NCBI RefSeq assembly: GCF_024362205.1
Contig: NZ_CP101462.1
Coordinates: 1,702,501 to 1,766,500 of the forward strand
Reading direction: 5' to 3'
From: Exiguobacterium aurantiacum
GTDB lineage: Bacteria; Bacillota; Bacilli; Exiguobacteriales; Exiguobacteriaceae
Length of the DNA stretch: 64,000 nucleotides
This document shows, one piece after another, positions 6,503 through 10,053 of this stretch; within the stretch, counting starts at the first letter, position 1; every line of letters begins with the position of its first letter. The notes beneath the pieces are model-generated. The model worked only from the letters and a program-made list of their open reading frames with translations. It had not been told where the DNA came from and did no database searches. The position numbers and the translations under genes were made by a program.

Positions 6503-7252
6503 TTATGGCAATGTGATTGTGATATGGCGTCGGCCCCAATTGATGGCCTCGCTCTTCGTGTCGACGAGTAAATCGACGATGTTCCCTTTAATGCGTCCTC
6601 CGGTATCGAGTGCGATCGCTTGACCGACCCCATCGATTTGAACGACCGTACCGAGCGGGATGACAGATGGGTCGACGGCGATGATGCGCATGCCGTTATA
6701 ATAAATCGAATCCGTTACGTCATGGCCTGTCGCCGTCAAGACGCGTCCCCCGTAAGAACCGTTGTCAGCCGCATCGTTCGTATACGCCGTCGACTCCGCT
6801 TGAATGACACGTCCTTGTGTCGAGACTGGTGTCACGGTCGCGTTCGACGCCGCTTGTTGCTTCTTCTCGGCTTTCGCTGCAGCTTGACGTTTCGCTTCTT
6901 CTTGTTGTGCCTTCTCGGCAGCGGCACGTTTTTCTTCTGCTAATCGCTCTGCTTTCGCTTTTGCTTCACGCTCCGCATGTTCACGCTCGGCTTTCTCTTC
7001 GGCCAATCGCTTCTCTTCGGCTAAACGTTTTTCTTCAGCGAGACGCTTCTCTTCGGCAAGACGTTTCTCTCGCTCAATTTTTTGTTGGCGCTCCAGCTCA
7101 ATCGCTTGACGTTCTAATTCAAGTGGGTTTTGGACAATTTTTTGTTCGGTCCCGATTCCAATTTGCGCGGCATCGGCAGTCGCAACAAACGCGAACGTTC
7201 CGACAGCGGCAAATAAAATCGTGATCATATATTTTAAGGAATGCATAGTCAA
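6503..7252 (-). CDS. Secreted 3D-domain protein with coiled coil (YocH-like cell-wall hydrolase)
   Basis: 249 residues. A signal peptide (about 1-28, ending ATADAA) is followed by a charged coiled coil (about 45-135) built from EEKRLA repeats and Ala/Lys/Glu, then a C-terminal 3D domain (about 150-249). The 3D domain shows VDPSVIPLGT and DTGGRIKGNIVDL, which carries two of the three Asp that name the family. Related proteins are peptidoglycan-cleaving enzymes such as YocH. The TTG start is chosen because an AAAGGTG site sits 8 bases before it; the ATG two codons on is too far. Two WalR-type boxes upstream support a wall-remodelling role. Confidence 0.88.
   Translation of the reverse strand: MTMHSLKYMITILFAAVGTFAFVATADAAQIGIGTEQKIVQNPLELERQAIELERQQKIEREKRLAEEKRLAEEKRLAEEKRLAEEKAEREHAEREAKAKAERLAEEKRAAAEKAQQEEAKRQAAAKAEKKQQAASNATVTPVSTQGRVIQAESTAYTNDAADNGSYGGRVLTATGHDVTDSIYYNGMRIIAVDPSVIPLGTVVQIDGVGQAIALDTGGRIKGNIVDLLVDTKSEAINWGRRHITITLP
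6992..7063 (-). repeat. Four 18-base tandem repeats coding the coiled coil
   Basis: Four near-identical 18-base units (6992, 7010, 7028, 7046) each encode six residues of the KRLAEE type. They may change copy number between strains. Confidence 0.85.
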
Positions 7253-7398
7253 TAAGTCAGCACCTTTCTCGTCTTCTAACGAACAGGAGTAAATTTACCA
7301 TGTCGCTCCAACCACGAGAAGGGATTTTGATGAAGTGAAATATTTCTGACACATCACGAAACGAGTGGTTACAATCTGTAACATTTGCTATTAAGCTA

Positions 7399-7440
7399 AC
7401 ATTATCAGTCGTTTCCATAAAAAATTACAGATTCGTTACA
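7399..7440 (-). promoter_or_regulatory. WalR box and promoter upstream of the 3D-domain gene
   Basis: On the minus strand TGTAACGAATCTGTAAT (7440-7424) matches the WalR consensus TGTWAH-N5-TGTWAH exactly. It overlaps the -35 region of an extended -10 (TGA-TAATGT, 7407-7399). A weaker dyad, GTTACAATCTGTAAC, lies downstream at 7368-7382. WalRK controls wall hydrolases including yocH in B. subtilis, so this fits the gene. Confidence 0.6.
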
Positions 7441-7465
7441 ACACACTGTGTAACAAATCTGTAAT
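7419..7465 (-). terminator. Terminator of the GDYXXLXY/DUF2157 operon
   Basis: Arms 7424-7440 and 7449-7465 pair over 17 bases with one mismatch and are followed on the minus strand by TTTTTT. Each arm is also a perfect WalR-type box. Confidence 0.8.
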
Positions 7466-7472
7466 CTGATTG

Positions 7473-7937
7473 TCATTCTGTTTCAGCCTCTACCGAGCGT
7501 AAATCGTGAGGTCTCACCATGCCCCAAGGTGCGACATCGACGTCCACTTCGAACGTTTTCGCACCTTCGATCGCCGACGTTTCTCCCTCGGCGACCCGAT
7601 ACGAACTCATGTCATCGATATACACTTGCCGGTCGTAATAGTTGGCCCGCGTGCCCCCGAAGAATGGTCTTGAACTGACCCGATCGATGGTCGCATACCC
7701 GTCATCCCCGGTTTTGAACGAGACGTATACTGTCCCCGATTCGACATCTTGTTTACCTTCGAACGAGTCATACTCCAAATAGACAAAGTCTCCAAAGAAC
7801 GGGTCGTACGGCTCATAGGACGTCGCTTTGAACGTATACGTCTCTCCGAACCAGGAGACCGCGTAGACGAGCAGAATAAAACCGACAGCAATCACTACTT
7901 GTATGATTGGCACTAGCCAAGGCGTTAATCGTTTCAT
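7473..7937 (-). CDS. GDYXXLXY domain membrane protein
   Basis: 154 residues: one N-terminal membrane helix (about 8-30) and an extracytoplasmic beta-rich domain. The motif GDFVYLEY (about 49-56) is a variant of the GDYXXLXY motif that defines the family. Function unknown. The ATG overlaps the stop of the DUF2157 gene, and these two families commonly sit together, which suggests they form a membrane complex. Confidence 0.85.
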   Translation of the reverse strand: MKRLTPWLVPIIQVVIAVGFILLVYAVSWFGETYTFKATSYEPYDPFFGDFVYLEYDSFEGKQDVESGTVYVSFKTGDDGYATIDRVSSRPFFGGTRANYYDRQVYIDDMSSYRVAEGETSAIEGAKTFEVDVDVAPWGMVRPHDLRSVEAETE

Positions 7938-9109
7938 GTCCGTGCATCCCCTCTCGAACGGCTACGCCACCATAAGGCGAGCGACAACGCGAAGACGATC
8001 AATGCTCCGATGAGGAAGAACAACGAAATGTCGAGTCGATCCCAGACGTAAATGAAATAGATCGTCATTTGGACAAGCAAGAAATAGATGAAGGCGAGGA
8101 CGATTGGTTTGCGATTATGGTCTTGATAGACGAGATAGGCGAGCGCGACCACTTCGAGCAGCACCGCCAGCAAAATGCCCGAGTCTTCGAATAACGAGAA
8201 CGGGATGACGGCGATTAAGCTGACCCACATCAAATCCGGACGCCGATGCACCAAATAGACGGCGACGAGAACGACCGAGAGAATCGTCGCTTCGATGACG
8301 GACGGTTGTCGCTGGGACAACCAGCTCTCTGTCGCATTGATCAAATAACCGATCGATAGGATGGCCGCAACGAACAAGTACAAATAGTTCCACTGGGCCC
8401 GCTCGCGATAGATGAGGAATAAGACATGCAAGGCGGCAAGTGCCCATAGCGGCCAAAAGCGGCCTTCGTAGCCAGCATATTGACCGATCGTGATGAGGAG
8501 ACCATAAAAGACGAACCAGGCGAAGATGCGATCGAGTTCATTGTCCCCATAATGGAACCAGACCCAGGTCACAATTAGCCCGAACACGATCAAGGTGAGT
8601 CCGATGCCTTGAAAACTGTTCGTGATCGCCAAAAAGGCAGCGAGCGCGGCCAAGAACGTATAGATGGGATGCTTATAAATCAATTTATGCAGGACGGCAA
8701 CGGCAAGGAAAAGCCAAAATAAGAACGGGATTTGCGAGGACAGATTATAAGTCGAGAAGATGACGATCATCGTAGCGACGAAAAAAGCGACCCCCAATAG
8801 ACGGAATAGCGTGACATAACGCGACGCCTTCACTTGCAAACGTTCGGCCGCGACATACATACCGATCATGAACGATAAGAAAATGGCTACTTTGACGAGG
8901 TCAGGAATCGCTTGCCAATTGGCCGCGACAAAACTAAAGAGGCTGAGTGCGAGCAAAATGGAACCGATAATCACAAGAATAGGCGGTTTGTGCTCACGTT
9001 TGCCACCGACCGCCAACTTCTTATGTTCATATTCGACCAAGCGCTGACCGGTCACTTCATCGAGTAAACCGGCCTCTTCCCATTCACGAACTTTTTTGTC
9101 AATGGACAC
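7934..9109 (-). CDS. DUF2157 polytopic membrane protein
   Basis: About 391 residues. A soluble N-terminal region (about 1-40) is followed by roughly twelve hydrophobic helices. The layout and the partner GDYXXLXY gene identify DUF2157, whose function is unknown. The ATG at 9118 touches the AAAGGG site with no spacing, so I prefer the GTG at 9109, nine bases from the site; the difference is three residues. No terminator separates it from the DUF2187 gene upstream. Confidence 0.82.
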   Translation of the reverse strand: MSIDKKVREWEEAGLLDEVTGQRLVEYEHKKLAVGGKREHKPPILVIIGSILLALSLFSFVAANWQAIPDLVKVAIFLSFMIGMYVAAERLQVKASRYVTLFRLLGVAFFVATMIVIFSTYNLSSQIPFLFWLFLAVAVLHKLIYKHPIYTFLAALAAFLAITNSFQGIGLTLIVFGLIVTWVWFHYGDNELDRIFAWFVFYGLLITIGQYAGYEGRFWPLWALAALHVLFLIYRERAQWNYLYLFVAAILSIGYLINATESWLSQRQPSVIEATILSVVLVAVYLVHRRPDLMWVSLIAVIPFSLFEDSGILLAVLLEVVALAYLVYQDHNRKPIVLAFIYFLLVQMTIYFIYVWDRLDISLFFLIGALIVFALSLALWWRSRSRGDART

Positions 9110-9135
9110 CTGAATCATCCCTTTCGGTTAAAAGG

Positions 9136-9336
9136 TCAGCTGGCGCGTTCGATCAATTCCAATTCTGTTTTCAGTAAAACTTGCTTCTCGAATTCGAGAC
9201 CAAGTTGTTGAAATTCTTCCATGATGGAAACGTCCCCGATGACCGTATTGGTCAATACGGCAGTCACTTCAGCGACCCAACCTTCACGAGTTGACTTGAC
9301 GATATCACCCACAACGAATTCTACAGACACACCCAT
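9136..9336 (-). CDS. DUF2187 (YkvS-like) small protein
   Basis: 66 residues. VGDIV near the N-terminus, a repeated beta-strand pattern, and a central segment (SIMEEFQQLGLEFEKQ) with a Val/Leu-rich end resemble DUF2187 small cytoplasmic proteins. Role unknown. The ribosome binding site GGAAG is three bases from the ATG, so a GTG at 9330 is an alternative start. It precedes the DUF2157 gene by 26 bases and is probably cotranscribed. Confidence 0.65.
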   Translation of the reverse strand: MGVSVEFVVGDIVKSTREGWVAEVTAVLTNTVIGDVSIMEEFQQLGLEFEKQVLLKTELELIERAS

Positions 9337-9377: not shown

Positions 9378-10004
9378 TTATATCGGTTTGAATACGTTTT
9401 CTTTAAGTCGTTTAATAAATTGTGTCAAAATTTTTCCAGTCAATCCCCAAATAATGTAGTCTTCGTGTTCATAGAAAGGTTCTCTTATTTTAATTACCCG
9501 TTTTTCGTACGCTTTAGCGTTCGCCATCCGCTCAAATGGGATATTTTGATCCGGATTCATCGTCCATTCCATCTCGCCGTGGAATGGATCGAGCAAGAGT
9601 AGCGTCTCGACCGGGACGGAGAATAAGTGATCGACCTCATCCGTATGATGGACGTCCGGTTGCATCGGGATCACCCCGACGAACGGATAGATGAGTTGCC
9701 GATGTGGCGTCGCGAGCGGTTGCAGGCGACCGATGACTTCGATATCCGACAAGGCGAGCAAGAGCTCCTCGCTCGTCTCTCGGACAGCGGCCTCGACCGG
9801 TGTCTCGCCCGGGTCAAGGCGGCCGCCCGGGAAGGAGATCTCTCCCGGTTGACGTCGCATCGTATGAGCCCGTACTTCAAAGACGACGTGCCACGTCCCG
9901 TCGACCTCAGTCAACGGGATCAGGACGGCTGCCGTCTGTTCATAGTTTTCTTCCATCGAGAAACTGTCACGTAATTGTTGTTCTGTGATCCACGATTTGT
10001 CCAT
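9378..10004 (-). CDS. Nudix hydrolase, CoA-pyrophosphatase type
   Basis: 208 residues. The Nudix box GGRLDPGETPVEAAVRE then TSEELLL (about 58-82) carries the metal-binding Glu residues (REtsEE). The preceding RRQPGEISFPGG matches the CoA pyrophosphatase group (YeaB/NudL-like), which cleaves CoA and its derivatives. The ATG at 10004 is preceded by AGGTGG five bases away; a GTG at 10013 lies inside that site and is rejected. It diverges from the FAD monooxygenase gene. Confidence 0.88.
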   Translation of the reverse strand: MDKSWITEQQLRDSFSMEENYEQTAAVLIPLTEVDGTWHVVFEVRAHTMRRQPGEISFPGGRLDPGETPVEAAVRETSEELLLALSDIEVIGRLQPLATPHRQLIYPFVGVIPMQPDVHHTDEVDHLFSVPVETLLLLDPFHGEMEWTMNPDQNIPFERMANAKAYEKRVIKIREPFYEHEDYIIWGLTGKILTQFIKRLKENVFKPI

Positions 10005-10053
10005 TCTCTCCACCTCGTTCTCTTTGTTTCTACACTTCCACCGTTGTCTCCTC

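Follow-up and report, generated by a model that had tools for sequence, protein, structure and literature searches.

Upstream of a gene for a 3D-domain protein of Exiguobacterium aurantiacum, two exact matches to the WalR-type pattern TGTWAH-N5-TGTWAH face each other and form the two arms of one hairpin, which is followed by a T-tract and lies directly behind the preceding operon. The best explanation, to which we assign a moderate probability, is that these boxes are a pair of operators which, by facing each other, also serve as a terminator, with WalR as the protein that would bind them. The analysis covered a window of 64,000 nucleotides around this element, the whole genome from which it was taken, further genomes of the genus and of the family's other genus, and a class-wide genome set.

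Facing boxes and the hairpin behind the GDYXXLXY gene

All genes concerned are encoded on the minus strand, in the order NUDIX gene (9378-10013, named from a reading of its translation), DUF2187 gene (9136-9336), gene for a DUF2157 membrane protein (7934-9118), GDYXXLXY gene (7473-7937), a gap of 226 bp, and the 3D gene (6503-7246; Pfam 3D). The DUF2157 and GDYXXLXY genes overlap by 4 bp, and the latter is the last gene ahead of the predicted terminator. The 3D protein, whose gene we presume to be the regulated one, reads as having a long charged, coiled-coil-like middle part.

Box I (TGTAACAAATCTGTAAT; 7449-7465, plus strand) starts 7 nt past the GDYXXLXY stop codon, reads away from the 3D gene and, in the transcript from the minus strand, supplies the 5′ arm of the stem. 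Box II (TGTAACGAATCTGTAAT; 7424-7440, minus strand) reads toward the 3D gene and makes up the 3′ arm. They enclose a loop of 8 nt (7441-7448, minus strand), constant in length and variable in sequence in all 19 genomes of the genus, and the stem is followed by the T-tract (7419-7423, minus strand). The two boxes were already given at these places in the preliminary description, and a pattern scan returned them as the sole exact matches in the window, where 0.05 would be expected. None of 100 shuffles of the window yielded two matches, although both boxes have to be taken as one event in such an estimate, since a palindrome that holds one box holds two.

In the minus-strand RNA, the inverted boxes do form a single stem, as had been proposed, with 17 pairs (one of them U.G), the 8-nt loop and then a run of U's. 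A stretch of 66 nt with this hairpin folds with −22.2 kcal/mol (z −5.6; an equally good fold in 0 of 200 shuffles), and the plus-strand RNA is weaker (−16.6 kcal/mol). The box hairpin was absent from the output of a consensus terminator scan of the window; the terminator scanner built for this analysis does detect it. Allowing up to 3 mismatches, the 42-nt element is found at a single place in its genome, which rules out a dispersed repeat, and the element matches no known RNA family apart from one chance match (E 0.11) far below its gathering score.

Several observations bear on whether the stem ends the transcript of the upstream genes. Over the 323 pair cells of the transcript-sense stem, 30 are G.U and none is A.C, while 5 are unpaired (four U.U, one U.C). 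The G.U cells occupy six stem positions, which at equal odds for G.U and A.C corresponds to a chance of 1 in 64, calculated after the fact. In each of the 19 genus genomes, the sense hairpin exceeds the antisense one in stability. Our scanner found no second terminator-like hairpin within the 250 nt before the matched 3D start in any of them. The covariation count was equalled or exceeded in 120 of 500 shuffles and does not rise above them because the arms vary so little. As the sole hairpin found in the gap, with its T-run and with G.U pairs in the transcript sense only, the stem resembles the terminator of the GDYXXLXY/DUF2157 operon and is probably just that, in agreement with the preliminary description.

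As an informal control, we judged by eye three ordinary terminators taken from these genomes. Those upstream of mreB and of a small gene preceding a WecA/MraY-family gene drift with compensating changes (10 genomes each), and the one after the 3D gene has a nearly frozen 5′ arm (19 genomes). Frozen arms alone are thus no proof of protein binding.

Conservation in Exiguobacterium and the arrangement in the other genus

The genus sample comprised 19 genomes, that of E. aurantiacum included. All of them encode both the 3D and the GDYXXLXY protein, and the gap between the two genes was aligned. Stem and T-run are kept throughout, and both boxes are exact in 17 of the 19 genomes. Of the two, the box that reads toward the 3D gene has a single change, in genome G010, and is exact in the remaining 18 genomes; the other box is likewise exact in 18, with one change in G006. 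Each change leaves a G.U pair. Relatives that keep the stem and lose the box sequence, which the preliminary description had named as evidence against its proposal, were looked for among the genus genomes and did not occur.

Within the arms, only 2 of 24 hexamer columns vary, each in one genome, versus 6 of 10 spacer columns (Fisher p 0.003, ignoring shared phylogeny). Mean pairwise identity amounts to 0.98-1.00 for the hexamers, 0.78-0.82 for the spacers, 0.49 for the loop and 0.48-0.56 for the flanks. Positions in the middle of the stem may tolerate change for reasons other than box function. Across 398 genomes of the class, a search for stems beginning with ATTACA and ending with TGTAATTTT recovered a facing pair with T-tail in 17, all of which are among the 19 of this genus, with G006 and G010 counted as misses for their one changed base each. 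None was recovered from the 379 class genomes outside the genus, among them 19 of the family's other genus.

In these 19 genomes of the other genus, 12 give an orthologue of the 3D gene by its neighbourhood, in the order NUDIX-DUF2187-3D-ABC transporter. The counts given here refer to these 12 loci; they exclude the remaining 7 genomes, whose best hits are proteins of 436-443 aa, and a second match in genome G024 (L139), which encodes a different 3D protein and has no box on a scan. Going upstream from the 3D gene, the DUF2187 gene is listed next there, and a separate hairpin terminator lies between the two, upstream of the boxes, at all 12 loci. Each of the 12 loci has at least one exact box ahead of the 3D gene and 9 have two; all of these boxes point away from that gene (0 of 12 loci with a box toward it). 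According to the scanner, no hairpin terminator is made of boxes at any of the 12 loci.

Distances were measured from a conserved TTTCA that follows a −10-like element. Box I is positioned at −125/−114 or −124/−113 in Exiguobacterium, and its counterpart in the other genus at about −126/−115 (starts from −125 to −128; 12 of 12 loci). Box II, facing box I, is at −100/−89 or −99/−88. The second box of the other genus, at −98/−87 in 9 of 12 loci, has the direction of box I, that is, it lies 2 bp off the place of box II in the opposite orientation. A TGTAAC half-site is found at −33 in all 19 Exiguobacterium genomes and at −32 in 11 of the 12 loci. The presence of boxes at a similar distance, but without this hairpin, indicates that the putative operators are kept where the hairpin is absent, which supports the earlier proposal that the 3D gene is a WalR-type target. 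On this comparison, the second putative operator points the other way in Exiguobacterium, the lineage in which a terminator is required at this point.

The DUF2157-GDYXXLXY pair itself appears as a relocated two-gene unit, situated between the DUF2187 and 3D genes here and elsewhere in all 19 genomes of the other genus. None of the 19 GDYXXLXY loci there has a NUDIX, DUF2187 or 3D gene within ~1.5 kb on either side, and other sequences follow the pair. At one of these loci a T-box leader is located after the GDYXXLXY gene (L102, 1178-1427, minus strand; 95.9 bits, gathering score 93), and T-box-like sequence was recognized by eye at 10 of the 19, L102 included; L109, another of these ten, stayed below the gathering score.

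The conservation data also bear on the view that the element is an intrinsic terminator only, its match to WalR boxes having arisen by chance or as a side effect of an AT-rich stem that is frozen. This view draws on the quality of the hairpin with its T-tract, on a pattern that is barely enriched genome-wide, on the nearly frozen arm of another terminator and on the missing covariation signal. It has more difficulty with hexamers that are nearly frozen next to variable spacers within one and the same stem, and with the other genus, where boxes stand at nearly the same distance without this hairpin. We consider it unlikely, albeit the most serious competitor of the paired operator that doubles as a terminator.

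Promoter of the 3D gene and the candidate regulator

The candidate −10 element best shared across genera is AATATT (7339-7344, minus strand), present in 14 of the 19 Exiguobacterium genomes, in 13 of these without a −35; all 12 loci from the other genus have TATATT in its stead. A rival candidate, TAAATT preceded by TGG (7292-7297, minus strand), occurs in 18 of 19 genomes and has no −35. The −10-like element common to both genera is situated ~80 bp beyond the inner box. With AATATT as −10, the third site described below would immediately precede the place of a −35, and boxes I and II would be situated beyond it, at a greater distance from the gene. The preliminary description had one DNA element ending one operon and controlling the next, with the inner box overlapping the −35 of the 3D gene. 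Comparison upholds the boxes and the predicted terminator; the overlap is not borne out, and the inner box was rejected as a −35, as only 2 of 19 genomes have a −10 hexamer spaced 16-18 bp from it.

The third site (7368-7382, minus strand), previously called an imperfect dyad, is a perfect one, GTTACA-N3-TGTAAC, built from the same half-site. Its hexamers on one strand, TGTTAC and TGTAAC, are 10 bp apart and therefore outside the TGTWAH-N5-TGTWAH pattern, and we rejected it as a normal WalR box for this spacing of 10 rather than 11 bp. The TGTAAC half is kept at a nearly constant distance from the −10-like element in all 19 genus genomes.

Two further promoter candidates were set aside. A −10-like element at 7329, YAWAAT, is accompanied by a −35-like hexamer in 12 of 19 genus genomes and by eye is absent from the other-genus sequences; for an ECF-type promoter, TGTAAC-N16-TGTC, the spacing is by eye not kept in the other genus. 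Further downstream, the leader of the 3D gene is strongly conserved at 7260-7300 (minus strand; TGGTAAATT...CTGTTCGTTA...AGAAAGGTG), and a small dyad, CGTTACATAACG, was read from the alignment in the leaders of 10 of the 19 genus genomes.

The genome encodes both partners of the WalRK system. WalR passes the YycF model NF040534 (435.7 versus a cut-off of 340 bits) and its output domain matches solved YycF/WalR domains, and WalK passes model NF033092 (838.1 versus 725 bits). The two genes head a cluster, walR-walK, in which four others come next; from a reading of these and from the known gene order we take them to be walH, walI, walJ and htrA.

Genome-wide, the pattern itself is not rare, with 15 matches in E. 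aurantiacum versus 11 for the reversed pattern, and 10-18 versus 7-15 per genome among the 19 of the genus. A single match hence means little, and the weight is on the facing arrangement and its conservation. Exact boxes occur at 14 places in the genome. Five of these adjoin envelope genes, namely the 3D locus, murA, mreB, a uppP-like gene (an assignment below curated cut-offs), and a small unknown gene with a WecA/MraY-family gene behind it. As judged from the translations, the remaining nine are either within genes or next to genes of other kinds. The boxes beside murA (L060, 1523-1539), the uppP-like gene (L061, 1525-1541), mreB (L066, 1535-1551; G000:C1:2077534) and the small gene before the WecA/MraY-family gene (L062, 1580-1596) recur in exact form in all 10 genomes for which the full list of hits was compared. 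These envelope-gene boxes are a candidate WalR regulon of Exiguobacterium. The set is supportive and no proof, because several matches of the reversed control are intergenic and recur across genomes as well; for the same reason a genome-wide regulon was rejected as statistical proof of WalR, being too weak.

Two observations were made alongside this survey. In two genomes (G002:C1:858440-858457 and G003:C1:96821-96838) boxes on both strands are one base apart, giving nearly self-palindromic WalR-type sites, and an FMN riboswitch (109.7 bits) is located downstream of the uppP-like gene (L061, 2711-2853).

WalR is the likely protein at the boxes. The possibility that the arms are operators of another regulator of the OmpR family, for instance PhoP, seems to us rather doubtful. 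PhoP-like regulators read similar repeats with an 11-bp step, and 38 matches to the WalK profile in the genome indicate that many sensor kinases are present. For B. subtilis, PMC10653849 lists ydjM under both phoP and walR; it lists yocH as a 3D-domain gene under walR, and according to PMC4478028 WalR binds and activates yocH. A 3D gene as a WalR target in B. subtilis argues against a PhoP-type regulator, as does the position of the conserved boxes beside murA, mreB, the uppP-like gene and the WecA/MraY-family gene, which is the envelope theme of WalR. With respect to the sign of regulation, a study in S. aureus associates WalR sites upstream of the −35 with activation, and links the orientation of a site to neither the mode nor the magnitude of the effect (PMC10746227).

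Proposed dual function and comparison with known systems

In the model that we favour, the operator pair doubling as a terminator, a pair of WalR-type operators (TGTAAY-N5-TGTAAY) would precede a −10-like element common to two genera by roughly 80-125 bp, and one extra TGTAAC half-site would be situated close to the place of the −35. In Exiguobacterium, the second operator would face the first, and the transcript of the upstream genes, with GDYXXLXY as the last, would end with an RNA copy of both. This copy would fold into the 17-pair stem, followed by U's, and terminate transcription. As DNA, the same 42 bp would be bound by the response regulator WalR (YycF), which most likely would activate the 3D gene from upstream. 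That the pair is an operator only, the hairpin being a geometric by-product and transcription ending elsewhere or reading into the 3D gene, might account for an AT-rich stem which the consensus terminator scan did not pick up, but is improbable given the conserved T-tract, G.U pairs in the transcript sense only and a gap in which no other terminator was found in 19 of 19 genomes.

An extension of the favoured model, which we consider speculative, is that the two functions are coupled. WalR on the arms might block or slow the polymerase at the hairpin and so sharpen termination of the operon, while read-through transcription might clear WalR and dampen expression of the 3D gene. If such coupling exists, two neighbours would read each other's activity via a shared element.

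If the dual function holds, an operator pair of a response regulator would have been turned into an intrinsic terminator. The other genus, with its operators differently arranged and a separate terminator, would then provide the second of a natural pair of states, useful for studying both the origin of terminators and the demands that RNA pairing and protein binding place on one sequence. It would also serve as a warning that regulon scans may dismiss operators sitting in terminators. A literature search, mostly without full texts, yielded no operator of WalR or of another response regulator used as terminator arms, and a search on Exiguobacterium together with WalR gave nothing on the topic by title.

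The boxes share with the WalR (YycF/VicR) operators of Bacillota, such as that of yocH in B. subtilis, the two TGTWAH hexamers separated by N5 within 17 bp and a position upstream of a 3D-domain gene, in a genome that encodes WalR and WalK. They differ in their head-on arrangement, through which they would also provide the arms of the predicted terminator. Like ordinary Rho-independent terminators, the element is a stem-loop followed by a T-run just past a stop codon; unlike them, it has an AT-rich stem with nearly frozen arms that match the operator of a regulator. A parallel is provided by the hairpin terminators of Neisseria and Pasteurellaceae, in which, according to PMC1852404, uptake signal sequences were co-opted as the stem. 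In both cases inverted copies of a protein-recognised DNA motif serve as stem, but the uptake signal is an abundant motif, whereas the facing pair described here consists of regulator-type sites and is present at one place in the genome. The parts of the arrangement are known, and its principle has a precedent in these uptake-signal terminators.
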